Under the pieces are notes generated by a model. It was not told where the DNA came from. It did not search any database and worked only from the letters and a program-made list of their open reading frames with translations. Of a stretch of 64,000 nt of DNA, positions 283 to 53,145 are shown one piece after another. Location of the stretch: contig NZ_QUEP01000014.1 in NCBI RefSeq assembly GCF_003478035.1, positions 1 through 64,000 of the forward strand. The letters run 5' to 3'. The position numbers and the translations under genes were made by a program. This DNA is from Clostridium sp. OF03-18AA (lineage in GTDB: Bacteria; Bacillota; Clostridia; Lachnospirales; Lachnospiraceae). Numbering within the stretch: position 1 is the first letter of the stretch; the number at the start of each line of letters is the position of its first letter.

Positions 283-744
283 TTACAAGATTTTCTTTTC
301 TCTGTAGCTTTCAAAAATGTACGATGGATTTTCATAGTAAACACTGCTGTTATAGTCATCAATTTTCGGGCTGATAAAAGAATTATAAACCTGCATCAGT
401 GCATCGATCACACTGATTTTTTCGTTTTCCGCAACCTTCTTGATCAACCTTTTATAAACTTTTCCAATTTCCCAGTAAGTCGGAATTGTATACTGACAAT
501 CTCCTACATTATCAAAACTGCCTTTTTTGATACCTGACTCCGCAATGAAATCATCGCTGACACGGTCTATGTTATCACAATGATAGACATCCGCAAGATC
601 ATAAATCTTTTCCAGACGCTTTTTTCCCAATGCATTTACAACATCTGCCCTTTTGTTTGTTGTCTTCCTGGCAATATAATCGATCAAACTGCATGTAAAA
701 AAGAGATCGTTGTCTTTCTGCGGTTCTCGCCCTGTTTCCTGCAT
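283..744 (-). CDS. Hypothetical protein coupled to the DUF3990 gene (possible antitoxin or partner)
   Basis: This 153-residue soluble protein has no signal peptide or membrane segment. Its N-terminal third (LFFTCSLIDYIARKT, then ADVVNALG) resembles the small DUF3791-type proteins that often accompany DUF3990 genes; I recall this from family context and have not searched it. The middle and C-terminal parts are rich in Asp and Tyr (FDNV, WEIGKVYKRLI, DDYNSSVYYENP). Its ATG overlaps the stop of the upstream gene by one base (TAATG), and a GAGGTG ribosome site lies inside the end of that gene, so the two are almost certainly translated together. A toxin-antitoxin or effector-immunity relation is inference only. 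Confidence 0.7.
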   Translation of the reverse strand: MQETGREPQKDNDLFFTCSLIDYIARKTTNKRADVVNALGKKRLEKIYDLADVYHCDNIDRVSDDFIAESGIKKGSFDNVGDCQYTIPTYWEIGKVYKRLIKKVAENEKISVIDALMQVYNSFISPKIDDYNSSVYYENPSYIFESYREKKIL

Positions 745-1205
745 TATTGAATCACCTCATAATCTCTATATTCCAAACACTTCAAGGCATCTTCGGTACA
801 AAAATCAATCTGATGTGTTGGATATTTAAACTTCGCCAATACCCAGAACTGTTCCCTGGTGATACTTCCATCAATAAAATCAGAAATGTAGCTGTAAATC
901 TGATCATCCGCCATCGCTCCGATCACGATATCGTATGAATGAGGTTGTCCATTCCGGCACGCGACAATAAAATCCAGCCATTCTTCTGTCATCGTGGAAA
1001 ATTCTTTTATATTCAGTTTTGTATTCAGGCGCACGTCATATACTGAGACAATTTTTGTATCATATCTTCTCGCCCAGCGAATCGCCTGTTCCCTGATCAC
1101 TGTACAGTAGAATCCAGGACCAAAGTCCTTCGTATTTCTCCCGATCCGAATTTCCGGTTCCTTCACCGGCATGTAGCCGCCGTGATAAACTGTCATTTTA
1201 GGCAT
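744..1205 (-). CDS. DUF3990 family protein (ADP-ribosyltransferase-like fold)
   Basis: The 153-residue product begins with the DUF3990 hallmark: TVYHGGYMPVKEPEI, then KDFGPGFYCTVIREQAIRWA. The YHG box and the later G-x-G-F-Y-x-T box match the NAD-binding core seen in families assigned to the ADP-ribosyltransferase fold. An ATG in frame at 1214 is also open, but the AGGAAGG ribosome site abuts it; the ATG at 1205 sits about nine bases downstream of that site and is the better start. The gene overlaps its downstream partner by one base. It lies in an AT-rich segment next to a restriction-modification operon. Proteins of this type are thought of as toxins or effectors; no catalytic activity can be asserted from sequence alone. 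Confidence 0.8.
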   Translation of the reverse strand: MPKMTVYHGGYMPVKEPEIRIGRNTKDFGPGFYCTVIREQAIRWARRYDTKIVSVYDVRLNTKLNIKEFSTMTEEWLDFIVACRNGQPHSYDIVIGAMADDQIYSYISDFIDGSITREQFWVLAKFKYPTHQIDFCTEDALKCLEYRDYEVIQ

Positions 1206-1263
1206 ATGTGACATCCTTCCTATGAGTTTTGCATGAAATAGTCGAATATTAACTGGTATTGGG

Positions 1264-1292
1264 TTGACAGGTGTGCGTATGCGGATGATATT
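1264..1292 (+). promoter_or_regulatory. Candidate promoter for the DUF6809-like gene
   Basis: TTGACA at 1264-1269 is separated by 17 bases from GATATT at 1287-1292. The -35 is perfect and the -10 is fair. It lies about 30 bases before the ATG at 1322. Confidence 0.45.
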
Positions 1293-1321
1293 GCAATTTT
1301 GATCTATGGGGAGGATTCGGT

Positions 1322-1585
1322 ATGAGAATCCTTGAAGGATTTTGGTATGGGAATATTGAACCCACGGAGTATGACACTTCTTCTTGTAAGGAGTACAAGG
1401 AAGTACTTCGGCTGATTACTCGGAACGAAGAAAAGCTTCTGGCCACTATGACGGATGAACAAAAGGAATTGTTCTCCCGATACACCGATGCCGTTCGTGA
1501 GCATCAAATGACAACAGATTGCCTGATATTCCAGAACGGCTTTAAGCTGGGTGCCAGGATAATACTGGAGATCATGGAAGAATAA
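1322..1585 (+). CDS. Small DUF6809-like protein
   Basis: The 87-residue protein starts MRILEGFWYGNIEP and ends FKLGARIILEIMEE. Both ends match a family of small Firmicutes proteins that I recall as DUF6809, usually 80-100 residues, with unknown role and often found in accessory regions. The ATG is preceded by a good GGGGAGG site about ten bases upstream. It is divergent from the DUF3990 pair and converges on the specificity-subunit gene. No motif gives a function. Confidence 0.65.
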   Translation: MRILEGFWYGNIEPTEYDTSSCKEYKEVLRLITRNEEKLLATMTDEQKELFSRYTDAVREHQMTTDCLIFQNGFKLGARIILEIMEE

Positions 1586-1596
1586 CCGAATCTACG

Positions 1597-1629
1597 ATCA
1601 GCCGAGTAGCGATTAGCCGCTCGGCTGAT
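1597..1629. terminator. Hairpin between convergent genes
   Basis: A perfect 10-bp stem (ATCAGCCGAG at 1597-1606 with CTCGGCTGAT at 1620-1629) lies between the stop codons of the DUF6809-like and specificity-subunit genes. There is no strong T run on either side, so it is a weak intrinsic terminator or an mRNA 3'-end stabiliser. Confidence 0.5.
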
Positions 1630-1633
1630 TGAC

Positions 1634-3001
1634 TTAAATACTTAGGTCAATAGAGGGATTTGTAAATGATTCCTCAACAACTGCTTTGATTTTAGCAATT
1701 TTAATATATGCATCACGTTTCTTGTCAAACGCTTGTTCAAGAGAATCAATGTATTTGACCTTTACATCATCCGTTATTTCTGGAATTGCAAATGTTTCAA
1801 AAAAATCGGCTCTAAGGTGAAGCATAGTTGAAGCAATAACAAACCATTTCTTAAAATATGACTCACCATATTTACTGGAAAGAAGCAAAAACACCCAATA
1901 TCTTTCATCAGTATTTCGTGGCCTATACTTTACAAGACCGCTTGAAATAATTACCTTATTATCCTCTTGGATAATAGCTACTTCACCCGGTTTTCCATCC
2001 TTAGCAAAGATTATATCTCCGCATTTAATGTCTTGCTCCAGTTGAGATAAAAAAGATTCTGGGCAATAACAATCAGGCTCATAATCCACATCAAAGTTGA
2101 TAATATCACTTGTCTTTATGAAAGGAATGCCTTCTTCCAAGTAATTGGCACTCCCAACCTCGTCACCCTTACTAAGATTTTCTGAATCCAATCCAATAGT
2201 ATTGATTCCATCATTAAGTGTAGCGATAGTTTCCTCAACATCAGGACGATAGAAATTCGGCATCAGCATTCGCTTATCAAATGAACCTGGCTTTACCACA
2301 AATCCAAACTGAGATTTGTCTTTGAAAGAGAAATGATAATCTTTGTTGAATTCCGAAATGATCTCCTGAATACGAAGTACAGCATAATAATAACTGTCGA
2401 ATGCATCTATATATTCCTGTATCAAGGCATCATATTTACTATCGTATTTCATAACCTTTAGATTAGCAATTTTCCCTTGATTCATAAATTTCTGCTTTGT
2501 AATAGAATATGTTCCCCGTACCTGTATTCTGTTAATTTGAGAATTAAGGTAAATTGTCAAAAATGCAGCTTCTTTGGGCGATGCTGTGCGTAACACAACG
2601 CTATTCTGACTCATATTCATTTCTGCAATAGTTGGAGGACACATTGCAGCTTTACCCATAAATTTGCCAGTCATAGTGTAAATGATATCATAAGGATGGG
2701 TAATTGATCGTTTGATAGTTTTGTTATGAAACCCTTCATTAATCAACTGTAAATCATTTACATTTATATAATGCCTTGAAACCGCTGAAGTTTTGATAAA
2801 AGGTACTCCATGATCCTTGTAGAAGAAATATGCTGGCGGAGTAGAACCACCCTTTATATCTCCAACTATATACTGAGACATCGTTGGACAAGTTGACATT
2901 CCTTCTTTTACAAACAGATACTTTGGATTATAATTTCTCGGATAAAATGATCCTGCTGACAATTTTATGGGGTTAGTTATAAATATTTCGAGTTTTGACA
3001 T
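1634..3001 (-). CDS. hsdS: Restriction-modification specificity subunit (HsdS-like)
   Basis: This 455-residue protein shows two target-recognition halves with the typical S-subunit pattern. The first has GVPFIKTSAVSRHYIN and DIIYTMTGKFMGKAAM (about residues 45-120); the second has GIPFIKTSDIINFD and DIIFAKDGKPGEVAII (about 285-360). Each half is followed by a helical stretch of the conserved-spacer type. It recognises the DNA target for the methylase-nuclease encoded immediately upstream. Its ATG lies 29 bases inside that gene, preceded by AAGGAGG at a ten-base spacing, so expression is coupled. The length is normal for a two-domain S subunit, and nothing looks truncated. Confidence 0.9.
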   Translation of the reverse strand: MSKLEIFITNPIKLSAGSFYPRNYNPKYLFVKEGMSTCPTMSQYIVGDIKGGSTPPAYFFYKDHGVPFIKTSAVSRHYINVNDLQLINEGFHNKTIKRSITHPYDIIYTMTGKFMGKAAMCPPTIAEMNMSQNSVVLRTASPKEAAFLTIYLNSQINRIQVRGTYSITKQKFMNQGKIANLKVMKYDSKYDALIQEYIDAFDSYYYAVLRIQEIISEFNKDYHFSFKDKSQFGFVVKPGSFDKRMLMPNFYRPDVEETIATLNDGINTIGLDSENLSKGDEVGSANYLEEGIPFIKTSDIINFDVDYEPDCYCPESFLSQLEQDIKCGDIIFAKDGKPGEVAIIQEDNKVIISSGLVKYRPRNTDERYWVFLLLSSKYGESYFKKWFVIASTMLHLRADFFETFAIPEITDDVKVKYIDSLEQAFDKKRDAYIKIAKIKAVVEESFTNPSIDLSI

Positions 3002-4787
3002 GTTCCACTAACCTCCTTGTGATTTCAACAAAATCATTATCTATCATAGCGTTTCCATCAACAATTACAGGCTCTCCATTTTCATCTCGTACATAAATTT
3101 CTTTCCCCCTTCTATCATGACCACATGTTTTAGCAATCGCCATAAATGTATCAAAAGTCTGAGGAAGTTCCTCTCTTTTCTTCTTTTTCAAAATGAGAAG
3201 AGATGTTTTTGTATCGGTAGATGGTAAAAAGGATTCAACAGGGCAGTCTATAATGGCGACAATATCAGCATTATTAAGAATATATTGACGCACGTATTCC
3301 AATCCGTTATTTCCTAAAATTCCATCAGGAAGAACTATGGCCATACGACCACCTGGTTTTAACAAATCCAAGCAACGTTCAATAAAGAGAATATCTGGGG
3401 TTCTGCTTTCATCAACTTTTTTAGTTTCAATCCAAGTACCATCTTCTCCTTTTTCCCACTTATGGCCAAGATGATAGTGCTCTAAAATTTTCTTATCATC
3501 AATCACGCATTTTTTACCAAAAGGCGGATTGGTCATTATAATATCAATTTTACCCTTAGCAATTTTGTTGGTGATTTTATTCGGCCATTGTTCAAACGGT
3601 GTTAGTGAGTCAAAATGGAAAATACCTGTATGCCCATCATCATTGAGCACCATATTCATTTTTGCTACTCGTGACAAATCAGGATTAAAGTCAATGCCAC
3701 GAATATACTTATCTGCATACTCTCTAAATAATCCAACAACATTCAATGTTGGACGTTTTTTATGCAGATCTTCATATTGTTGGCGGATATTTTTTAGTGC
3801 CATAACCAAGAAACCGCCAGAGCCACAGGCAGGATCGCATACCGTTTCATCTATTTTAGGCATTATAGCCTCAGTGGCCATAAAAACAATTTCTCTTGGG
3901 GTGAAGAACTCGCCATGTTCACCACGAAGATTTGCGCCTACAAATGTTTCGAACGCAACACCCTTAATGTCCACATTCGTGTCCAATAGAGAATACTTTT
4001 GCAATTCTGCAATCGCAAAGCAAAGACATCTGTCATTTAATTGAATTTCATCGTTTGCTTCAAAAATGTTATCCTCTTGAAAACGAAGTTTGACCTTTGC
4101 AAACAATTTATCAATACGTTCTCGAACATTGCTAAGACCGTTTTGTGTCTTTTGTTCTTCAGGAGTAACATAAAATTCACATTTTTCAGTAAACAAATCC
4201 TTCTCGTCTTCAATTTTACAAAAGAGAATTTTAAGTATTTCCGAAAAACGCTTGTCCTGAGTTAATCCTTGATTACTAAAAAAGTAATTATTACAACGCT
4301 TAAAAACACCTTTCAAGTCTGTGCATTTTACCAAATCAGACTTATTATACTTACCGATTGAATCGACACTTTCTTTATATTTAGGAATATCAGGAAGTTC
4401 AGTATAGCGATTAGGACGAGCAACATCTTTATAATAGAATAAAATGCCATCTCCATTTGTCCACGTACCAAAACTGGCAGTAGTCGCAGACATATAACTC
4501 CACAGCTGATCCACGCCCTCTTTTTCATCTTTTTTCTTTGTTTCGACAATCCAATAAATATTGTCTTGGGACTTTTCTTCATCATTAAAAACAACGATGT
4601 CACATCTTTTATCTGTTGAGCCTACCTTGATAGGATACTCAACATCGATATGGCTCTTTGGATATTTATATACATCCAAAAGAATGCGGCAATATTCCTG
4701 ACGTACGTATTCTTCCGGTGTTTCTTTTCTCATTTTTCCGGTAATCAAACACTTGATTTTACCTTCATCTACAATAATTTCTTGCAT
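2973..4787 (-). CDS. Nuclease-N6-adenine methylase fusion (HsdR N-terminal domain + HsdM)
   Basis: The 604-residue protein joins two activities. Residues 20-130 look like the HsdR N-terminal nuclease domain: RCDIVVF around Asp63 and VETKK with Glu82-x-Lys84, which fits the PD-(D/E)xK pattern. Residues 270-600 are a class gamma N6-adenine methylase with DPACGSGG at 318-325 and NPPF at 420-423. No helicase/translocase gene of a classical type I system is present in the window. The arrangement of one nuclease-methylase polypeptide plus a separate specificity subunit resembles type IIB BcgI rather than type I. The gene begins four bases after the regulator stop and overlaps hsdS. Assignment of enzyme type is inference from architecture. 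Confidence 0.88.
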   Translation of the reverse strand: MQEIIVDEGKIKCLITGKMRKETPEEYVRQEYCRILLDVYKYPKSHIDVEYPIKVGSTDKRCDIVVFNDEEKSQDNIYWIVETKKKDEKEGVDQLWSYMSATTASFGTWTNGDGILFYYKDVARPNRYTELPDIPKYKESVDSIGKYNKSDLVKCTDLKGVFKRCNNYFFSNQGLTQDKRFSEILKILFCKIEDEKDLFTEKCEFYVTPEEQKTQNGLSNVRERIDKLFAKVKLRFQEDNIFEANDEIQLNDRCLCFAIAELQKYSLLDTNVDIKGVAFETFVGANLRGEHGEFFTPREIVFMATEAIMPKIDETVCDPACGSGGFLVMALKNIRQQYEDLHKKRPTLNVVGLFREYADKYIRGIDFNPDLSRVAKMNMVLNDDGHTGIFHFDSLTPFEQWPNKITNKIAKGKIDIIMTNPPFGKKCVIDDKKILEHYHLGHKWEKGEDGTWIETKKVDESRTPDILFIERCLDLLKPGGRMAIVLPDGILGNNGLEYVRQYILNNADIVAIIDCPVESFLPSTDTKTSLLILKKKKREELPQTFDTFMAIAKTCGHDRRGKEIYVRDENGEPVIVDGNAMIDNDFVEITRRLVEHVKTRNIYN

Positions 4788-6112: not shown

Positions 6113-8050
6113 GTGGCTGAACAGCAGAATCAGAACAAGAATGCAAATGCAAAAGAGCAGGATATCCACCAGCTCTTAAAGGTGCGCCGCGAGAAGCTTG
6201 CTGAGTTACAGGCAGAGGGCAAGGACCCATTCCAGATCACAAAGTATGATCAGGATACTCACAGCGCAGATATCAAAGACAATTATGGAGAATATGACGG
6301 AAAGGAAGTTTCCATCGCCGGACGTATCATGTCCAAGCGTGTGATGGGTAAAGCTTCCTTCTGCAACGTCCAGGACCTCAAGGGCAACATCCAGTGCTAT
6401 GTATCCCGTGATGAGCTCGGTGACGATTCCTACAAAGACTTCAAGAAGATGGATATCGGCGATATCGTCGGCATCAAAGGCTTTGTATTCACAACAAAGA
6501 TGGGCGAGATCTCTGTTCATGCCCATTCCGTAACTCTGCTCTCCAAGAGCTTACAGATCCTTCCGGAGAAATATCATGGTCTGACAAACACAGATACCCG
6601 TTACCGTCAGAGATATGTGGACCTGATCATGAACGAGGACGTAAAGAAGACATTCGTTATGCGTTCCAAGATCATCAGCTGCATCCGCAGATATTTAGAT
6701 AACCTCGGATTCCTCGAGGTTGAGACTCCGATGCTCGTTGCAAATGCCGGCGGTGCTGCTGCAAGACCGTTCGAGACTCACTACAATGCACTTGACGAGG
6801 ACGTTAAACTTCGTATCTCCCTCGAGCTCTACTTAAAGAGACTCATCGTCGGCGGTATGGAGCGTGTTTACGAGATCGGCCGTGTATTCCGTAACGAAGG
6901 TCTTGACACAAGACACAACCCGGAATTCACTCTGATGGAGTTATACCAGGCATATACAGACTACAAGGGAATGATGGACCTCACCGAGAACATGTTCCGT
7001 CATATCGCAGAGCAGATCTGCGGATCCACAACGATCCCGTATGCGGATGTTGAGATCGACCTTGGAAAGCCGTTCGAGCGCCTTACCATGATCGACGCGA
7101 TCAAGAAATATACCGGTATTGATTTCAACGAGATCACGACAACTGAGGAAGCAAAGAAATTAGCGGATGAGAAGGGCGTTCACTATGAGGATCGTCATGT
7201 CCGCGGCGACATCATCAACCTCTTCTTCGAGGAATTCGTTGAGGAGCACCTGATCCAGCCGACCTTCATCACAGACCATCCGATCGAGATCTCCCCGCTT
7301 ACCAAGAAGAAACCGGATCATCCGGAGCAGGTAGAGCGTTTCGAGCTTTACATCTACGCTCGTGAGATGTGTAACGCATACTCCGAGTTAAACGATCCGA
7401 TCGACCAGAGAGAGCGTTTCAAAGCACAGGAGGCTGCTCTTGCTGCCGGTGATGACGAGGCAAACACAACAGATGAGGACTTCTTAAATGCCCTTGAGAT
7501 CGGTATGCCGCCGACCGGTGGTATCGGATACGGTATCGACCGTCTTGTTATGTTATTTACAAACTCCCCGGCGATCCGTGACGTACTGCTCTTCCCGACA
7601 ATGAAGTCCTTAGACACAAAGAAGTCTGAGAAACCGGTCGTTAAGACATCCGAGAACGCAGCTCCGGAGGTCATCGACTTCTCCAAAGTTGTGATCGAGC
7701 CGATGTTCGCTGATTATGTTGATTTCGAGACATTCAGCAAGTGCGATTTCCGCGCTGTTAAGGTAAAAGCCTGCGAAGCAGTCAAGAAGAGCAAAAAGCT
7801 CCTTCAGTTCACACTCGATGACGGAACCGGCACAGACCGCACGATCTTAAGCGGTATCCATGCTTTCTACGAGCCGGAAGAGCTTGTCGGAAAGACCCTG
7901 ATCGCGATCACAAACCTTCCGCCGAGAGCCATGATGGGAATCGATTCCTGCGGTATGCTGCTTAGTGCAATCCATACTGAAGAGGGCGAGGAGAAGTTAA
8001 ACCTTCTCATGGTTGACAACCATATCCCGGCTGGTGCGAAGCTGTACTAA
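6113..8050 (+). CDS. lysS: Lysyl-tRNA synthetase, class II, with fused C-terminal tRNA-binding domain
   Basis: The 645-residue enzyme charges tRNA-Lys. It starts with GTG, ten bases after AAGGAG. An OB-fold anticodon domain (about 55-165) precedes the class II core with motif 2 (VYEIGRVFRNEGLDTRHNPEF) and motif 3 (GIGYGIDRLVM). Ordinary bacterial LysS ends near residue 500; here a linker rich in Glu and Lys leads to a second OB fold (about 540-645: DFRAVKVKACEAVKKSKKLL, ILSGI, MLLSA) like the C-terminal domain of methionyl-tRNA synthetase and Trbp111. The extension probably adds general tRNA affinity; it is known in some Clostridia. Two terminators follow. Confidence 0.97.
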   Translation: MAEQQNQNKNANAKEQDIHQLLKVRREKLAELQAEGKDPFQITKYDQDTHSADIKDNYGEYDGKEVSIAGRIMSKRVMGKASFCNVQDLKGNIQCYVSRDELGDDSYKDFKKMDIGDIVGIKGFVFTTKMGEISVHAHSVTLLSKSLQILPEKYHGLTNTDTRYRQRYVDLIMNEDVKKTFVMRSKIISCIRRYLDNLGFLEVETPMLVANAGGAAARPFETHYNALDEDVKLRISLELYLKRLIVGGMERVYEIGRVFRNEGLDTRHNPEFTLMELYQAYTDYKGMMDLTENMFRHIAEQICGSTTIPYADVEIDLGKPFERLTMIDAIKKYTGIDFNEITTTEEAKKLADEKGVHYEDRHVRGDIINLFFEEFVEEHLIQPTFITDHPIEISPLTKKKPDHPEQVERFELYIYAREMCNAYSELNDPIDQRERFKAQEAALAAGDDEANTTDEDFLNALEIGMPPTGGIGYGIDRLVMLFTNSPAIRDVLLFPTMKSLDTKKSEKPVVKTSENAAPEVIDFSKVVIEPMFADYVDFETFSKCDFRAVKVKACEAVKKSKKLLQFTLDDGTGTDRTILSGIHAFYEPEELVGKTLIAITNLPPRAMMGIDSCGMLLSAIHTEEGEEKLNLLMVDNHIPAGAKLY

Positions 8051-8121: not shown

Positions 8122-8175
8122 TACGCATCACATCCCCATTGATCTGGCAATGGGCACGTGATGCGTACTTTTTTT
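8122..8175 (+). terminator. lysS terminator 2
   Basis: TACGCATCAC (8122-8131) pairs with GTGATGCGTA (8158-8167), with an inner CCCATTG/CAATGGG stem, followed by seven T. It is a second, stronger terminator in tandem. A third stem, ATCGCGGG/CCCGCGAT at 8193-8216, lies before the convergent gene end and has only a TTTTA tail. Confidence 0.85.
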
Positions 8176-8233
8176 CATATGAAGGTCTCCTGATCGCGGG
8201 CTGCAGAACCCGCGATTTTACCATTCAGCCGCC

Positions 8234-10516
8234 CTACTTCGTGATCTGGAAGGACCGGTTGATCGGGGAAGCCAGATAGTTACCGCCGAGGACAACGACT
8301 GTCATGGTATAACGTCCCGGTTCTGTCGGCGGAGTTGTGGTGCTGGAGTATGCTCTCCATTTGCTTGTAAATCCGGAGTAGAGCACGCTGACGCTGGACT
8401 GATCGTCAACTCTCTCCCCGCCGATCTCAAGATGTGCGCCAAAGTCAGCTGCCGCCGCATCGGCTGCGGAGATCTTTTTGCCGATACTCTGGTTCCATAC
8501 AAGCTTTGCCTTGTCAGCCTTTAAGACAAGAGCGCCGGCACCGACACCCGTATTGTAGTTCTTGTTGTCGGTGACTGCTGTCACGCTGTAAATTCCGGCG
8601 TGATTCGGGGCACCGATACTGATCCGAAGATTATCAGCGATGGATGGAAGCTTATTGATCACCTTGATGACCTGTCCCAGAGCGCCGGTATCCACACCGA
8701 TCTTCTCAAGCACATCGATCACTTCACTGGTATTTAAAAGCTTTCTAAGCTCACCAACTGTGATTCCGTTCTGCAGCATTTCTGTCAGGGTTGGCTGATT
8801 TAAGCTTTCCAGCGCCTTATCGACGATCTTGATGACGATGCTGTTGGAGGTATACTGTTCCGGAAGCTCCAGATAAACGCCTGTAGTCACATTGCTGGTG
8901 ATTCCGGCATAGATGATATACAGGTTAAAATGATCTTCAGGATCCGTGGAGACAAGCTCTCTGCCCTTCACAGCCTCGCTCACATATCTGCTGGCGCTGT
9001 TGACGCTGACCTTCACATTTGCTTTGTTGATGGTCACGCTGCCCTCAGCTTCTTCACTTGCGCGATACTCCGAATTTCCCTTGAAGGTTACTTTGATCTT
9101 CTGCACGCCTGCGCCGATCTGCGGGAAGCTTCCGAGAACCTTTCCGCCGAGCTCATAGCTTTTTCCTTCAAACGGAACATCGTCCCTGATTCCTTCTCCG
9201 TTCAGGAATTTGTCAGCAAAGCTGTCACCGAGCTCGCTGCTCAAACCGTCCAGAAGAGAAAGTCTCGCATTGTAGGAAAAGGTAAAATCGTCAACAGACA
9301 GTGTGTCCCGCTCCGGAAGCTCGGAATTTTCCCAGTCGATCACATTGTCAAGAACCGCCTGTTTCACTGCTTCCACATCCTTATTGTATGTGAAGGAAGT
9401 TTCGCTCTTTAATACGACTTTGCTGTTGATCCGGTTGTCCGTCACTGTTACTGATACCGTCACGCTGCCCGGCGCATAGTCCCTGCTTCCGCCCCAGGAA
9501 ATACGGATTTTCCAGCTTCCCGTGCCGAATTTCTTTGTTACAAGTGACTCATCATCGAGCGGTTTGAAATTTTCAATGAGCCCGGAAGGATCTGCATTGT
9601 ACTTCACCGCGAACTCATCAAAATCCACTTCCGGATCTGTGGACTCCACTACAGCCTCGTAGATCGCTTTTGCTGTTGCAACATAATCGATATTCTGATC
9701 ATGATCAAAAACAAGCCCTGCTTCGTAAGGAGCTTCTTTCAGATTGAACTTCATCTGCTCCCGTTCCGTCATGGTCACGTCTGTCTCTTTTTTAAAACCG
9801 GAATACTCCTCATCGCCGTCCCATAAAATACGGATCTTCTGTTTTCCTGCCGGGATCTCCGGATAGGAATAGATGGAATTCACGCCGCTTCCTTGTCCGC
9901 CTTCTAACGGCATCCACGTCTTCCCGGCATTTCCCACCCCTAATTTCTCAGGCGCAGCATAATATTCGATCGTCACTTCGTCACTGGAAATGTACTCCGC
10001 ATTTGATGCAGAAAAGACTCTTGTAAAGATCTCCTCTTTCGTTTCATCGGCATTGAATGTTCCATCCGCGTCATATCTCAGAGGAATTTCTTCATCTGCA
10101 TTTAATTCAACATCGAATGTAAGTTTTGCTGCCTTTTTGATGGTGTATTCTTTCGTCGTACCTGCTGCACGAACCTTATAAGTGTCATCCTTATTATCTG
10201 CCAGAGCCGGATGTGTATATGTATAGTTGATAGCTATCTTCTTTGTACTCGTAAATCCAGCTATTGAACCCCAGGATCTATTTCCCCAGGTCAGATTATT
10301 CAACTTTCCTTCACACTCATACTCCCACTCCAACGTCTCATCACTGTCCGGAATCAATGCCTTTGTCAGAATCTCATTCACAAACTCCGGACCGCTTTCA
10401 GCCGGAATACACACTTCCACGCCTTCCGCTGCAAATCCTGTCATACAGAACGCCTGCATCATAACCAACAGCGCTGCAAGCACCGCCAGGATATGATGAA
10501 AAAGATGCTTTTTCAT
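8234..10516 (-). CDS. Secreted Ig-like repeat protein
   Basis: This 760-residue exported protein has a signal peptide (MKKHLFHHILAVLAALLV... to about residue 29). The GAGGAAAA site points to the ATG at 10516 rather than the open ATG at 10537. The mature part is built of beta-rich, acidic modules; three share a closing strand pattern (GKQKIRILWDGDEEYSG, GSWKIRISWGGSRDYAPG, GVQKIKVTFKGNSEYRAS) and a fourth is weaker (AGIYSVTAVTDNKNYNTG). There is no LPxTG motif, C-terminal membrane anchor or choline-binding repeat, so attachment to the cell is unclear. It lies 76 bases after the VWA surface protein on the same strand and is probably co-transcribed. An adhesin or matrix role is inference. Confidence 0.7.
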   Translation of the reverse strand: MKKHLFHHILAVLAALLVMMQAFCMTGFAAEGVEVCIPAESGPEFVNEILTKALIPDSDETLEWEYECEGKLNNLTWGNRSWGSIAGFTSTKKIAINYTYTHPALADNKDDTYKVRAAGTTKEYTIKKAAKLTFDVELNADEEIPLRYDADGTFNADETKEEIFTRVFSASNAEYISSDEVTIEYYAAPEKLGVGNAGKTWMPLEGGQGSGVNSIYSYPEIPAGKQKIRILWDGDEEYSGFKKETDVTMTEREQMKFNLKEAPYEAGLVFDHDQNIDYVATAKAIYEAVVESTDPEVDFDEFAVKYNADPSGLIENFKPLDDESLVTKKFGTGSWKIRISWGGSRDYAPGSVTVSVTVTDNRINSKVVLKSETSFTYNKDVEAVKQAVLDNVIDWENSELPERDTLSVDDFTFSYNARLSLLDGLSSELGDSFADKFLNGEGIRDDVPFEGKSYELGGKVLGSFPQIGAGVQKIKVTFKGNSEYRASEEAEGSVTINKANVKVSVNSASRYVSEAVKGRELVSTDPEDHFNLYIIYAGITSNVTTGVYLELPEQYTSNSIVIKIVDKALESLNQPTLTEMLQNGITVGELRKLLNTSEVIDVLEKIGVDTGALGQVIKVINKLPSIADNLRISIGAPNHAGIYSVTAVTDNKNYNTGVGAGALVLKADKAKLVWNQSIGKKISAADAAAADFGAHLEIGGERVDDQSSVSVLYSGFTSKWRAYSSTTTPPTEPGRYTMTVVVLGGNYLASPINRSFQITK

Positions 10517-10542
10517 ATGTTTTTCCTCTATTCCCATAGATT

Positions 10543-10592: not shown

Positions 10593-13500
10593 TTACTGGA
10601 TCCATGCCCCGTTCGCGTCTACACGATATCCATCCGGTGTCGTGGTGTCCGCAAGCATCGCTCCAAGTGTTCCCTTGTCGGATGCTGTATTGAAGTAATA
10701 CCACTTGCCGTCGATCTCATGCCAGCCGGTGTACATATGGCCTCTGGTGTTGTCGTACTGGGTATGAAGGTAATACCAGTTATTGTTCCAGAAGAACCAG
10801 CCGTCTTCCATCCAGCCGTCAACGTCGAAATAGTACCAGTCGGAACGTCCGTTCCAGGAGAGGTATACCCACTCATTGTGCGGGAATGTTCCGTCATCGT
10901 AGCAGAACCACCAGCCGTTCAGTCTCCATGTTCCTGTCGCGTCGCGGTAGCCGCCCTTTGCCTGGATCGCCTCGTCGGTGTAGTATTCCGGACGGTCGAA
11001 ATCGATGGCGAAGCCGTAGGTGTAGAAACCGTAGATCGTATCGCCGATCTTCAGGTACTCGTTGGACGGAAGTCTTCCGTTGTCCTCAGTGAACTCGCCG
11101 CCCTCTAAGATCCAGCGGCCAGTCTTGCCTGCTGCGTTTGTGGCTCTTCCTCTTGTGGATGTGCCGTCGGAATCGCTGTCACTGCTGCTGTTTCCGCCGG
11201 TAGATCTCCACTTGTAAGTAATCGTGAAGGTCTCTCCATTTTCGCCTACAACATAACCTACCGGGAATTTATCCCATGTCTGATCGCTGTAGCTGCTGCT
11301 CTTTCCCTTGGATGCCGGAATGTCGGCAACTGTGAGCTTTGTTCCGACCTCGAAGGTCCTTGTGATCTCGGTGCCGCCGTTCTCTGTGAATGTTCCGTTT
11401 ACAACAATGAACTTGATCTCGGTGTACTGTTTCTCAGGAGCTTTCTTCTCGCATTTTGCAAGGAAGCTGATGCTGATCTCCTGATCTGCCGCATACCATG
11501 CCGCATCGTCTGTGTCGTACCAGAGAGTAACTCTTGCCGCGTCATTTCCCGCATTCGTGTGCTTTCCATCGAGATATGCCTCAATGTATTTTGCTGCGCG
11601 GACTGTTACGACTGCTGTGTTCTCATCGTCCTTGTCTCTTGCCACACCGTAGCTTCCGGAGATAAGGCCGAATTTCTGAGCCGCATGATCTGCGTCTGTG
11701 GTACAGGTCACGTTGATGGACTCACCGAACAGCTTCTTCAGCTCATCGTCTTTCGGAAGCTTCGGAGGTTCCGGTTTCTTATCGGTGCACTTTACGGTAA
11801 ATGTGACCGGAACTTTGCCATCTGCAAGTTCCCAGGCACTTCCGCCGTACTTGAAAGTCAGCTTTGCGGATGATCTTCCCTGTAATTCATGTGTTCCGTA
11901 CTCATCGTTATATGCTTTCACATAAGCATCTGCGTTTACTGTGACGATCGCTCTTGCATCGCTTGCGCTTGCAACTGTATAGCTGCCGTCGATCAGGTCA
12001 TATGCTGCGTCTTTATGGTCTGCATTGCTTCCGGTATGAACGAGAGCAACACTGATAAGCTCTTTTAACTCATCGTCTGTCGGAACTGTCGGCTCTTCCG
12101 GTTCCTCGGCATCAAACCATGCCCAGAAATTGATCTCATCTCCGCCTTTGACGCTCCATGTGATATCCGGTTTTACGCCGGAATGATCTGCGCTGTTCTT
12201 TGTCCATTTTGCAAATTCATAGCCGTCTGCCGCGTTGACTTCCACGCCCTCCAGGGTCGGTGTTATGGATGTCGCATCTTCCAGGGTGTAAACCTGAACA
12301 GTGCCGGTGTTAGCCGCTGCGTTTTCTTTATCGGTTACTGTGCCGTTTCCGTCTTTATTTCCAAACTTAACGAGAACCTGCTCGATATCCGGTGTGCCAT
12401 CTCCGCCTGTCTCGCTGCCGTCATTCTTGTTCCAGGAATCGCGGTAGTAGTAGAGGTCGATGGTGTTCTTGCCGGACTGGAACTTAGAGTCGTCCGTATA
12501 GGCAGTTGTTGTTCCGCCAACGGTAACTGTCGCATGGCTGTACAGATAATCTGCGTTGTAATAATTCTGAGTTGTCATAAGGCCAGAGATCTTCTCAGAG
12601 ATCAGGGAACCTTCGTCGGCTGTCTGGTTGACGTCAACGGACTCATCGTAAACGGCGTTTTCTTTGTCTGTGTCAAAGTAGTGTTTGTTTACGACGTAGG
12701 TGACTGTCTCGGCCGGAGCGGAACCGTCCTCTTCCCAGACTGCATACAGTGTGATTGCTCCATTCTTAGCTACTGCTGATACATTTACATCGCTGAAAAG
12801 TTCAACAACTGCATTCTCGTCATCTGAAGTACTCCATCCTTTAAACTTGAATCCATCTTTGGACGGTGCGTCCTTTTCGGCAAGATTCTTGACCTTATCT
12901 TTACCAGTAAGATCATTGTTGCTGAGAATGTTGCGTGCTTCATTTAACTGATATCCGTCTGCATTCTGATACTCAGCTGACCATTCGCCGCCATTTGCAT
13001 CATAGCTTACCGCATATTTCTGCTCCGGCGCCTTCTCAGCCACAGCAACATTGACGGTGTAAGCTTCCCCATTTGTAATAGCCGGAATTTCCGCATCTTC
13101 CATTACATAATAGATCTTTCCGTCTTTTCCTGTGATCTCTGTGCCAGCATTGACTGCAGCATGTGTGAATGCTTCATTTCCATTAACGAGCGCTACCCAT
13201 TCCAGATCGTCCTCCTGGACTATCGTATTGCCGTTGACATAGTTGACTTTCAGTGTCGCAGCTGTAACAAACGGTTTCGGGAAACTGATGCTCTTTTCTT
13301 TCTTCTCGCCGTTCTGTGTGTAAGAATAGTTGAATACAGCATCGCCGTTTAAATAAATCTTCCCTGCCTTTTTCTTTGCATCATCTGTCAGTTCTACGGT
13401 GTAAGTCAATGTTACCTTATCTTTCATTGCACCGTCAGAATTCCACTTGATCGTGTTGGTGGTTTCATCATAACTTGCCGTTCCGTTATTTGCACTAAGG

Positions 13501-14462
13501 GTTCCATTTGTCATGGTGATATTGGAACCTAACGGATCCTGGATGCCGCTTATGATGTCTTTGGTGATAGATGCGAATACCTGATTCAGCTCTTCACCAT
13601 TTTTCGCGTTTAAATTGCCTGCGTTGGCAAGCGCATTAAATGCCGTTTCGTCCATCTCACTGTCATCTGTCTTATTTAACGCAAAGCTTACAGTGTATGA
13701 CTTTCCATTTTTCTTAAACGTATTGAGGGTGTTCTGCTCATTACGCTTTTCCATGTACCCGTCATCACTGGCACCATCTGCAAGGATAATTAAAATTTTA
13801 TTTGCACTTGCATCTTTTCCATTTAAAACTTCAATTCCCTTTTTTACGCCCTTGCTGAGACAGGTTCCTCCCTTTGGTTTTATTGTTCTTAATGCATCAA
13901 CAGGTGAAACTTTCTCAGCTTTATCACTGTATAAAAATCCCAAAAGATCCAATTGTTCTCTTGTGAAATAAACATAACTGCAATTTACTCCCGCAGTTTT
14001 CAATTTCTCACTCATACTGGAAACTGCATTGATTGCTGTATCCCAGCGGCTCAGATTCGTTTTCGAAACCTTTCCGCAGTTATATCCGCCAGTTGCATTT
14101 TCATGATTATGCGTTTCATCCGTACACCAGGCCATAGACCCCGATGCATCCAGCACAAATGCAACTTCCGTCGGCTTCACTTCGATCAGATTTTTCGCAT
14201 TTTCAGCATCTACAGTTAAAGTGATCTCATATTTGCCGTCTTCTGTTAACTTAGCTGTCTTGGATAATGTAATTGCTGCGTCCTTGCTGTCATTTACAAC
14301 ATTTCCCGCAATTCCATAACTGATCTCATTCGGATTCATGGAATTTCCCGGTGCTGAACCGTCTCCAACATCCGCAAACGACACTCCCGGCACTGCCCCG
14401 ACAACCATGCAGGCTGTCATGAGAGCCGCCAAAACACGTTTCTTAATTCCGCGCTTCTTCAT
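10593..14462 (-). CDS. Large surface protein with VWA, InlB-type and cell-wall-binding repeats
   Basis: This 1289-residue protein starts at the ATG at 14462, nine bases after AGGAGG; longer starts lack a site. Residues 1-30 are a signal peptide ending VSFA. A von Willebrand A domain (about 98-310) has an intact metal site: DASGS at 105-109, a later TCLSKG, and LADGASDD. Next come an isopeptide-like beta region, an InlB B-repeat-like unit (VSYDANGG ... FKGWS ... LYAVW), a MucBP-like unit (VVNKHYFD), and two tandem repeats of about 95 residues beginning DDELKELI and DDELKKLF. The last 110 residues are Trp/Tyr-rich choline-binding-type repeats (GKWYYFN, NWYYLH). It is probably an adhesin held non-covalently on the wall. 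Confidence 0.88.
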   Translation of the reverse strand: MKKRGIKKRVLAALMTACMVVGAVPGVSFADVGDGSAPGNSMNPNEISYGIAGNVVNDSKDAAITLSKTAKLTEDGKYEITLTVDAENAKNLIEVKPTEVAFVLDASGSMAWCTDETHNHENATGGYNCGKVSKTNLSRWDTAINAVSSMSEKLKTAGVNCSYVYFTREQLDLLGFLYSDKAEKVSPVDALRTIKPKGGTCLSKGVKKGIEVLNGKDASANKILIILADGASDDGYMEKRNEQNTLNTFKKNGKSYTVSFALNKTDDSEMDETAFNALANAGNLNAKNGEELNQVFASITKDIISGIQDPLGSNITMTNGTLSANNGTASYDETTNTIKWNSDGAMKDKVTLTYTVELTDDAKKKAGKIYLNGDAVFNYSYTQNGEKKEKSISFPKPFVTAATLKVNYVNGNTIVQEDDLEWVALVNGNEAFTHAAVNAGTEITGKDGKIYYVMEDAEIPAITNGEAYTVNVAVAEKAPEQKYAVSYDANGGEWSAEYQNADGYQLNEARNILSNNDLTGKDKVKNLAEKDAPSKDGFKFKGWSTSDDENAVVELFSDVNVSAVAKNGAITLYAVWEEDGSAPAETVTYVVNKHYFDTDKENAVYDESVDVNQTADEGSLISEKISGLMTTQNYYNADYLYSHATVTVGGTTTAYTDDSKFQSGKNTIDLYYYRDSWNKNDGSETGGDGTPDIEQVLVKFGNKDGNGTVTDKENAAANTGTVQVYTLEDATSITPTLEGVEVNAADGYEFAKWTKNSADHSGVKPDITWSVKGGDEINFWAWFDAEEPEEPTVPTDDELKELISVALVHTGSNADHKDAAYDLIDGSYTVASASDARAIVTVNADAYVKAYNDEYGTHELQGRSSAKLTFKYGGSAWELADGKVPVTFTVKCTDKKPEPPKLPKDDELKKLFGESINVTCTTDADHAAQKFGLISGSYGVARDKDDENTAVVTVRAAKYIEAYLDGKHTNAGNDAARVTLWYDTDDAAWYAADQEISISFLAKCEKKAPEKQYTEIKFIVVNGTFTENGGTEITRTFEVGTKLTVADIPASKGKSSSYSDQTWDKFPVGYVVGENGETFTITYKWRSTGGNSSSDSDSDGTSTRGRATNAAGKTGRWILEGGEFTEDNGRLPSNEYLKIGDTIYGFYTYGFAIDFDRPEYYTDEAIQAKGGYRDATGTWRLNGWWFCYDDGTFPHNEWVYLSWNGRSDWYYFDVDGWMEDGWFFWNNNWYYLHTQYDNTRGHMYTGWHEIDGKWYYFNTASDKGTLGAMLADTTTPDGYRVDANGAWIQ

Positions 14463-14548
14463 ATTTCTTTTCCTCCTTTTCCTTCTCTGAATCGTGGAAC
14501 AATATTTCCATTGCTGCATACAAGCGTTTTCTGTTCCTGTATGCTCAC
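14459..14548 (-). CDS. Putative 29-residue leader peptide upstream of the VWA gene
   Basis: A GTG at 14548 stands six bases after a perfect AGGAGG and opens a 29-codon frame (start MSIQEQKTLVCSNG, end GKGGKEI). Its TGA overlaps the VWA start in the ATGA pattern, which usually means translational coupling. The ribosome site of the VWA gene lies inside this frame. No family is recognised. Upstream to 14681 I see no clear promoter, so transcription may come from the AP2 gene promoter. Confidence 0.45.
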   Translation of the reverse strand: MSIQEQKTLVCSNGNIVPRFREGKGGKEI

Positions 14549-15395: not shown

Positions 15396-15403
15396 TCAAA
15401 AAA

Positions 15404-15447
15404 GCCGTCCATGACATAATGTGTATTATGTCATAACGAATCCTCCT
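15404..15447. repeat. Recombination-like site A in the AP2 leader
   Basis: A 44-base element containing the near-palindrome ATGACATAA - TGTGTA - TTATGTCAT at 15411-15434. It matches site B (15668-15712) in two ways. Read directly, the flanks GCCGTYC and CGRATCCTCCT match. Read as an inverted repeat, the 24-base core matches 23 of 24, including the six-base spacer. On the minus strand the GGAGG at its edge is followed by ATG ACA TAA, a two-codon frame. Confidence 0.7.
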
Positions 15448-15667
15448 CTGTATTCATATATATACATAACAATTCTAACACGAAAAACCTTTGTTTTCAA
15501 CGGATATTCCGGGTTTTTTACATTTTTGCTTTTTTTTTAACATGATTTTCAAAAAATATGCGGTCCTGGAAACAGATTCGCAGATCGGATACTTTTTTAA
15601 ATTAACTTAAGAAAGCGTAAAAAGTATGAAAATTTCATGTAAGAACGATGCAGATCTTCTAAGACAA
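15448..15667. other. Putative invertible segment between sites A and B
   Basis: About 220 bases without a gene, AT-rich with runs of T (15531-15539) on the plus strand. It contains the strong minus-strand promoter at 15472-15500. No convincing plus-strand promoter of equal quality is seen. Inversion would move the promoter away from the AP2 gene. Confidence 0.5.
15472..15500 (-). promoter_or_regulatory. Strong promoter inside the segment between sites A and B
   Basis: On the minus strand TTGAAA (15495-15500), 17 bases, TAGAAT (15472-15477). It reads toward the AP2 gene and the surface operon and lies between the two palindromic sites. If the segment were inverted it would read toward the recombinase 3' end instead. 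Confidence 0.75.
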
Positions 15668-15712
15668 GCCGTTCATGACATAATACACATTATGTCGTAA
15701 ACGGATCCTCCT
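15668..15712. repeat. Recombination-like site B at the recombinase 3' end
   Basis: The near-palindrome ATGACATAA - TACACA - TTATGTCGT occupies 15675-15698 and contains the recombinase stop codon. Its spacer is the reverse complement of the spacer in site A, so the two cores are in inverted orientation although the outer flanks are in direct orientation. Confidence 0.7.
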
Positions 15713-16589
15713 TTTTTCCCATTTGTTCCATATTACCTTTTTCACCTTCCGATATCGCTTCTTCCCTTTGGACCAGTCCAAGCTCTAAATCCTTTGCGCA
15801 GGCTTCCTCGCTCGTGATCATCGTATACCGTCTTGTTGTCTCAATGCTGCTGTGTCCAAGATAATCTGCTAGCCGCGCGAGGTCGTGTTCCTTTTCGTAA
15901 AAACATCTCGCGAAGAGATGTCTCAGATTATGCGGGAACACTTTGCTTGCTGCCACCCTTGCCTTCTCGCAAAGACTTTTCATCTCCGTCCATATATTTC
16001 TCCGGTCCAGCGGTCTCCCGTTCCTTGAGCGGAAAATACTTCCCGCCTTGATCTTCTGTTTTCGACAATAGTCTCTCAAAAGGATCAGAAGGGACCTTGG
16101 GATCAGGATGATCCGAACTTTGCCCTTAAAGTCGATCCGTATCCTTCGCTCCTCCAGAGTCTCCGCTGTCAGATATTTTAATTCTCCGATCCGCATCCCC
16201 GTTCCCGCGATGGTCTGAAGGATGCAGAACAGGCGCTCGCGATTCTCCCGTCTCGCGGTCATAAGAAGTCTCTGGTACTCTTCGCGCGTCAGTTCCCGCT
16301 CCTCCTCGCGAAAGATCTGTCTCTGTGTTCTGCACACACGCACCCGGAGATCGTCCCGGCCGGTCCAGCTCAGATATCCATTCACCGCGATCAGCATGGA
16401 ATTTACGCTGGACGTCCGGTATTTTTCTACGAGGAGCTTTTTATAGTCTAAGATGATCTCCTTGTTCAGCTCCCGTTCTCCTGAAAATATCAGGAAAGTC
16501 CGCACATCCCTCAGATACTTTTCGATCGTATTTTTACTTTTCTCGCATTCTGTTAAATATTGCCTATAATGTTCCAGATCATACTTCAT
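15690..16589 (-). CDS. Tyrosine recombinase (XerC/D-type integrase)
   Basis: The 299-residue enzyme has an N-terminal SAM-like core-binding domain (about 1-85) and an intact catalytic domain: Arg133 (GTGMRIGEL), His220-x-x-Arg223 (HNLRH), His246 (LGHSS) and Tyr255 (RRYT). The ATG at 16589, after AGGAG, fits the family start; the frame is open further to 16667. It is short, without an arm-binding domain, like recombinases that invert or resolve local DNA rather than phage integrases. Its last codons run into site B, and it is next to the segment with the surface-operon promoter. A role in inverting that segment is inferred from position and sites. Confidence 0.92.
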   Translation of the reverse strand: MKYDLEHYRQYLTECEKSKNTIEKYLRDVRTFLIFSGERELNKEIILDYKKLLVEKYRTSSVNSMLIAVNGYLSWTGRDDLRVRVCRTQRQIFREEERELTREEYQRLLMTARRENRERLFCILQTIAGTGMRIGELKYLTAETLEERRIRIDFKGKVRIILIPRSLLILLRDYCRKQKIKAGSIFRSRNGRPLDRRNIWTEMKSLCEKARVAASKVFPHNLRHLFARCFYEKEHDLARLADYLGHSSIETTRRYTMITSEEACAKDLELGLVQREEAISEGEKGNMEQMGKKEDPFTT

Positions 16590-16763
16590 GAACGATTCTT
16601 CTCCTGTTCTGTCAGGCTCTCTGCACCTGACATGTTTCATAATATGAAGCTTTTCATTATTTCTCATTATGGCACATTTTTCAGAAAATCACTCGTCTAA
16701 TCTGCCTGCAAAAGCTGCTTGCAAGATTTTTTTCAAGATTCATGCATTCCACGAACACATTTC

Positions 16764-52876: not shown

Positions 52877-52944
52877 GATTTGTCCTCCTTTTTAGGTTTC
52901 TTATGATACCGTATTGTTCCGCACTTCGTGCTCTCACAATACTC

Positions 52945-53068
52945 AAAAACATTCATAATCCGCTCATTTTTCTACGAAAAATGGCTGCTTATTCATGTTT
53001 TTGGCGGGTCCCAAGGTCGGAAATCCTCTTGCAAGCAAGCTTGCATCGGATTTTCGTCCTTTTGACCC
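52945..53068. repeat. Two nested hairpins upstream of the response regulator (R5-type)
   Basis: AAAAACAT (52945-52952)/ATGTTTTT (52995-53002) encloses CATTTTT/AAAAATG. Next, GGGTC (53006-53010)/GACCC (53064-53068) encloses AAATCC/GGATTT and the tip TGCAAGC-AA-GCTTGCA (53030-53045). The tip is shared with 23043-23058. Together with R1 copy 2, R3 copy 1 and a terminator, these elements fill the gene-free 52877-53379. Confidence 0.7.
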
Positions 53069-53145
53069 TAGTATCATCCTACCATATTTCGACCCTTTTT
53101 TCCTTACTTTTTTCTGAAAACTAAGAGGAAGTTTTTACAATTTAT

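Follow-up and report, generated by a model that had tools for sequence, protein, structure and literature searches.

A probable invertible promoter with an adjacent Xer-type recombinase ahead of a surface-protein operon, and a family of related switches with common arms and differing cores

The closest described systems to the locus studied here are the cwpV/RecV switches of Clostridioides difficile, the fim switch of Escherichia coli, the Xer/dif system and the invertons of gut bacteria. In the portions of the C. difficile reports drawn on here (PMC2784873, PMC5903667, PMC8844915), the cwpV segment is without a promoter, recV does not lie beside cwpV, and most of the repeats are called unrelated to one another. 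In fim, according to the part of the source used (PMC2784873), a promoter is inverted by two adjacent recombinase genes, transcription behind the recombinase varies with the state of the switch, and termination is Rho-dependent. The dif site, as the available sections of PMC2731167 present it, is a single chromosomal site for XerC and XerD, with a centre that discriminates between the chromosomes of one bacterium and avoids their fusion. Gut-bacterial invertons include invertible promoters near surface genes, and their motif groups 125 and 139 come mainly from Firmicutes_A in the excerpts of PMC11892184 considered. Our literature search, outside which subscription papers and supplements fell (including the motif list of PMC11892184), returned no paper on the site family described below, and the site motif may for that reason already be in print.

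We examined the window, the whole 64-kb stretch of DNA that was analysed. The distal recombination site, on the target-gene side (15411..15434), has the arms ATGACATAA/TTATGTCAT around the central hexamer TGTGTA, and the recombinase-side site, or site 2 (15675..15698), reads ATGACATAA TACACA TTATGTCGT, its hexamer being the reverse complement of the distal one. Both sites are nearly perfect palindromes. Aligned as inverted repeats, they agree at 23/24 positions, and together with their flanks they form 30-nt arms at 90%. A preceding sequence-only reading had reported these two 24-base sites, their coordinates, their reverse-complement six-base spacers and the 23/24 match, all of which were borne out. 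Searching the 64-kb window for the site with up to 3 mismatches returned exactly these two, and 100 shuffles gave a mean of 0.02, none with two. The arms of the distal site are also present in relatives. Between the sites lies the invertible segment (15435..15674; no strand is assigned to it or to the sites), which stands in the ON orientation in the window and can be read in its flipped form in the protein P0005 described below. The segment carries a sigma-A-type promoter, TTGAAA-17-TAGAAT, on the minus strand (15472..15500), with TG before the second hexamer and aimed at the AP2 operon. Between 14900 and 17000 there are 7 promoter-like sites, against 2.6 in shuffles, and this one scores highest, with 10/12 matches, in agreement with the minus-strand promoter read from the letters before. 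Inverted sites with compatible cores thus enclose a promoter-like sequence, the arrangement of an invertible promoter, and the window is assembled in the ON state. Elsewhere in the window, a minus-strand row of genes at 283-4787 encodes a DNA methyltransferase (PADLOC MTase_II), a type I specificity-like protein and two candidate PDC-M10A/B defence proteins, and a Clostridiales-1 RNA (RF01699; 135.5 bits) lies at 52904-53076 on the minus strand. The lysS gene of the window scores as 100% identical to one that its sources assign to Clostridium sp. AF37-5AT and to the taxon Pilosibacter, which NCBI places in Clostridiaceae; the DNA probably comes from a Pilosibacter or a near relative.

The gene adjoining the switch (15690..16667, minus strand) encodes a XerA/XerD-like tyrosine recombinase of 325 aa, with its stop codon inside site 2. 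It keeps all six catalytic residues, R-K-H-R-H-Y, and is the intact small tyrosine recombinase ending in one site that had been proposed. Its nearest solved structures are a XerC-like protein, XerA, XerD and XerH. With NCBIfam scores of 135 bits for XerA (cut-off 220) and 107.5 for XerD (cut-off 329.6), the protein appears to be a relative of XerA/XerD and not a member of those equivalogs.

Evidence for the flipped state comes from close relatives. P0005, the closest database homologue of the window recombinase (365 aa, 95% identity, in a cluster of 72 sequences), runs through site 2 into an oppositely oriented segment and ends in the tail HNVYYVITNPPLYSYIYITILTRKTFVFNGYSGF. Over 33 residues this tail agrees at 100% with the segment's plus strand from 15415 onward, and it is absent from all frames of the window as it stands. 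When site 2, on its recombinase side, is joined in silico to the inside of the distal site, as an inversion would do, the P0005 tail appears in one frame. The source contig of P0005 is 1,232 bases, and there is a frame shift relative to the window recombinase just before the site; since P0005 is read one frame off the window recombinase, a one-base difference before the site is implied. We take P0005 as evidence, at the protein level, that the inverted state exists in a close relative, with the junction read back from the protein. Using the recombinase as anchor, or the AP2 gene for L059 and L061, we found homologous segments to be inverted relative to their anchors in 7/18 segment pairs with detectable homology (L057 with L059 and L061; L074 with L073 and L077; L084 with L082 and L085; L092 with L093). 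The comparison of segment orientation among relatives that the sequence-only reading had suggested thus finds both orientations, in close relatives only, through the P0005 junction and the homologous segments. Promoter direction, called from promoters 20-75 bases from a site with a 3-bit threshold, could be assigned at 49/57 loci: 10 are ON (window included), 39 OFF and 8 unclear. Switch-like sites also lie ≤250 bases from a contig end at L043, L044, L053, L060, L061, L070, L093, L105, L115 and L121, which is to be expected if both orientations existed at assembly; L070, L105 and L115 are without a recombinase or pair. An invertible promoter driven by an adjacent tyrosine recombinase had been proposed for this locus, and the P0005 junction, the reverse-complement site pairs beside recombinases and the two orientations among homologues all support it. 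We conclude that 15411-15698 is very probably an invertible promoter.

The window switch belongs to a larger set. A first scan of named genomes gave two recombinase relatives at 58% identity, L001 from Candidatus Enterocloster faecavium (genome G002) and L002 from a Lachnospiraceae bacterium; L002 has the arms of the window around another core, GGAT/ATCC, again inverted. Exact ACATAAT-N4-ATTATGT is present in 58/397 genomes of the family of G002, and the pattern read backwards in 18; with all 58 site-bearing genomes listed, close site pairs are found in 34/397. An even sample of the phylum (249 genomes) contains 18 with a site match and two, G002 itself and G641, with a close pair. In total, 87 stretches were analysed (85 fetched, the window and L002). 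All 48 groups of exactly two exact sites ≤700 bp apart in these stretches have reverse-complement cores and 0 have identical ones, and four further groups (L063, L083, L088, L093) hold more than two exact sites, with one core and its reverse complement in extra tandem copies. A single exact site is present in another 35 stretches. In 13 of these the site adjoins a recombinase, and in eight of the 13 it is accompanied by a partner with one mismatch. Of the five left unpaired, four stand close to the end of a contig; the other is L008, where a recombinase accompanies a single site and no partner lies within 900 bp. When inexact partners are counted, there are 62 loci with at least two sites, and cores are reverse complements in 61/62, at site distances of 168-446 bp in those 61. 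The exception, L117 (43 bp apart, without a recombinase), resembles a chance occurrence. The switches form a family in which the arms are common and the four-base core differs from locus to locus.

Homologues of the window recombinase (P0001) are found ≤500 bp from 57/62 loci with two or more sites, and in 57/57 of these the gene is aimed at the segment. Over these 57 recombinases, the catalytic residues are kept at R159 in 57, K183 in 56, H246 in 57, R249 in 56, H272 in 57 and Y281 in 56. The stop codon is mostly within a few tens of bases of a site, and in several cases inside it, the most extreme distances being 77 and 288 bases. On a quick tree of 57 rows, related recombinases tend to share the base immediately outside ACATAAT, which changes 16 times, against a mean of 29.2 and a minimum of 22 in 300 shuffles. 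Cores hardly track the tree, with 45 changes in 57 rows. The window sits in a supported set of eight, in which the commonest arm base is that of the window. Selection for differing cores within a genome was considered and found no support, the same core occurring in 3/34 within-genome pairs and in 32/1,796 pairs between genomes; where the two recombinases of a within-genome pair are ≥70% identical (11 pairs), cores differ in 9 and are the same in 2. Evidence for avoidance of palindromic cores is too weak: 0/48 are palindromic, and the chance of this is 0.04 (0.10 over 34 distinct cores). Two unusual arrangements were seen among the sites. At L088 (G252:C2, 7790-8243), three tandem site copies 34 bases apart stand at each segment end, all with the core AACA or its reverse complement, a core that recurs at L089 in the same genome. 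In G420:C1, 3695056-3732017 holds four single exact sites with different cores, ~11.6-13.6 kb apart, and no close exact pair.

The flanks of the window sites match crosswise: the outer flank of each site matches the inner flank of the other. In the OFF state, the distal outer flank GGACGGCTTTTTT (15398..15410, minus strand) would join the recombinase-side inner flank (15666-15674) in completing a long stem, and the recombinase-side outer flank ending in CCTCCTTTTTT (15699..15717, plus strand) would pair with the distal inner flank (15435-15447). The outer flanks are direct repeats, as had been remarked from the letters. The explanation offered then, a flip of the core after a duplication, is not needed, because the flanks become long palindromes with T-runs when flipped, an arrangement suited to terminators that depend on the state. 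The same palindromic OFF-state design is found at L057 and L058 with unrelated flank sequences, so a single old duplication is not needed for the direct repeats. Since inversion joins the matching flanks into long OFF-state hairpins, it probably builds terminators besides turning the promoter. In the window, the predicted recombinase-side hairpin has -33.1 kcal/mol in OFF vs -16.8 in ON, the predicted distal hairpin has -29.6 kcal/mol in OFF vs -19.5 in ON, and T-runs stand behind both predicted OFF stems. In a consensus scan of the window as it stands (ON), neither site scores as a terminator. In seven of the set of eight around the window, OFF has the stronger distal hairpin, a count read off after the fact. 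Over 44 loci, the OFF state gives the distal site the more stable hairpin in 23 and the less stable one in 9 (p 0.006), a modest effect. A family-wide strengthening of the recombinase-side hairpin in OFF found no support, with 17 vs 16 of 44 (p 0.41). T-runs of at least 5 are found outside the recombinase-side site in 31/57 loci vs 5/57 outside the distal site, and T content differs between the two outer sides with p 7e-7, near-copies included. We read the recombinase-side T-run as a likely stop for the OFF transcript before it enters the recombinase gene from behind. For the window locus itself, the prediction that inversion also builds terminators has, in our estimate, slightly better than an even chance of being correct.

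Downstream of the promoter in its present orientation, the first gene behind the switch encodes an AP2-type protein (P0002; 14682..15395, minus strand), in which two invariant CxCxCG..SCGC repeats are followed by an AP2-like domain. The AP2 match scores 25.6 bits against a Pfam cut-off of 33.3. The structure model of this protein has a mean pLDDT of 80.9 and a pTM of 0.40, and a Foldseek search with it gave no match at E ≤ 0.001, the best useful matches being plant AP2 domains at E about 0.04. The protein may bind DNA. Inspection of the ON transcript by eye did not identify a ribosome-binding site for the AP2 gene. The distal inner flank (15435-15447) contains AGGAGG and then ATG ACA TAA, with a stop two codons past the start; the ON transcript would carry this element upstream of the AP2 gene. 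Next come a large secreted protein with a VWA domain, a Listeria-Bacteroides repeat and choline-binding-like repeats (10593..14519, minus strand) and a second large protein, probably secreted, with a sub-threshold Ig-like match only (8234..10537, minus strand). The AP2 protein and the two large proteins are thus downstream on the same strand, as had been claimed, the AP2 match being below Pfam's own cut-off. The switch most likely turns this surface-protein operon on and off.

To survey targets more broadly, we collected 77 open frames behind the 57 loci (start ≤1,300 bases away, at least 120 aa, at most 2 per locus, long frames cut at 900 aa). The 25 commonest of 60 Pfam families matched behind switches include polysaccharide synthesis (Polysacc_synt_2 3, CpsB_CapC 3, Bac_transf 2) and surface domains (VWA_2 3, Listeria-Bacteroides repeat 3, LRR_5 2, SpaA 2, Big_2 2, choline-binding 2), and also unrelated enzymes. 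By their domain matches, the genes behind other switches thus include adhesin and capsule families. In the window, L009, L010, L057, L058 and L091, the distal site is immediately followed by a P0002 homologue. At L058, two AP2-type homologues (8156-8797 and 6284-6922) flank the recombinase and switch.

P0002 homologues are also found beside sites without an adjacent recombinase, at L007, L059, L060, L061 and L090. Four of these (L007, L059, L061, L090) are site pairs, and their cores are still reverse complements. Recombinases of this type are encoded elsewhere in the genome in G021 (3), G002 (4) and G224 (1); G344 has none at E ≤ 1e-40. L059 has the arms of L057 in the same genome, with a different core. 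Sites conserved as operators where no recombinase is present had been named in advance as a finding that would refute inversion. The four pairs go part of the way to that finding, but their cores are reverse complements, and 3/4 of the genomes encode recombinases of this type elsewhere. Flipping of these copies in trans, by recombinases encoded at other loci, has roughly even odds in our judgement, given the arms and cores.

These recombinase-less pairs, all adjoining an AP2 gene, are also what one might see if the palindromes were operators of a regulator, such as the AP2 protein or the recombinase, and no inversion took place; the near-perfect palindromy of both sites fits as well. Operators, however, have no need of cores that differ by locus yet are reverse complements in 48/48 pairs, and both the flipped junction in P0005 and the homologous segments in two orientations speak against this explanation, which we regard as very improbable. 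The reverse-complement cores also weigh against the idea that the sites are attL/attR of a mobile element beside its integrase, or decayed copies of chromosomal dif, because cores so arranged give inversion and not excision. An integrase does adjoin a site, the longer flanks are direct repeats, and the arms resemble dif; but the window has inverted cores instead of the direct-orientation sites that flank cargo in an integrative element, a segment of 168-446 bp is too small, no close relative of the recombinase is encoded on any viral contig searched, and up to six loci occur in one genome (G255: L062, L063, L082-L085). We consider this origin extremely improbable.

Another view accepts the inversion but denies that the surface operon is its functional output, which would instead be the recombinase or an antisense RNA. 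The assembled promoter is indeed aimed at the recombinase in 39/57 loci, and the recombinase stop codon lies in or near a site. The T-runs behind the recombinase-side site (31/57) look as if they stop that very transcript, and capsule and adhesin families stand behind the distal site, so we hold this output to be improbable.

We therefore favour a phase-variation cassette acting on the surface-protein operon. The Xer-type recombinase (15690-16667) would bind the dif-like arms ATGACATAA/TTATGTCAT at both sites and exchange strands within the six-base centre; because the two centres are reverse complements, exchange would invert the ~264 bp between them. In ON, the promoter (15500-15472) would fire across the distal site, transcribing the AP2 gene and probably also the two surface-protein genes, with phase variation as the presumed phenotype. 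In OFF, transcription would approach the recombinase gene from its 3' side and should terminate at the long recombinase-side hairpin and its T's, and the distal site would likewise present a hairpin and T-run ahead of the AP2 gene. We also entertain, as a possible but rather doubtful extension, a multiplexed set in which Xer-type recombinases of one arm specificity serve several switches per cell, including the recombinase-less AP2-linked copies in trans, drifting four-base cores set the pairing, the site doubles as a terminator stem and the AP2 protein biases the direction of inversion; the last of these, a feedback by AP2, is speculation. The sequence rule (conserved arms, reverse-complement N4 cores) lists promoter switches from assemblies without reads, and gives a likely recombinase and target for each, in a gut-bacterial group in which few are characterised. 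If cores alone decide pairing, the family supplies orthogonal recombination sites ready for use, and control in trans can be tested directly on the recombinase-less copies.

Compared with cwpV as described in the source passages available, the window has a promoter-like sequence inside the segment and lacks the CwpV-type promoter outside it, the promoter and probable terminators would turn together, and recombinase and switch form one cassette. A whole family with common arms and differing cores also sets it apart from the C. difficile repeats. The likeness to fim, within the portion of the account consulted, lies in promoter inversion by adjacent recombinase genes and in state-dependent transcription behind the recombinase; the differences are one recombinase here instead of two and predicted intrinsic instead of Rho-dependent termination. 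To our knowledge, fim is without dif-like palindromic sites. With gut-bacterial invertons, so far as the excerpted survey describes them, the locus shares an invertible promoter near surface genes. With Xer/dif, in the sections of the report available (PMC2731167), it shares arms around CATAA-N6-TTATG, a six-base centre and related recombinases, and the window site has both the six-base centre and the CATAA/TTATG inner arms. The dif site serves two recombinases singly on a chromosome, whereas here the arms are symmetric, one recombinase is present and the sites form close inverted pairs around a promoter. A variable centre acting as insulation has its precedent in dif, where it works between chromosomes.
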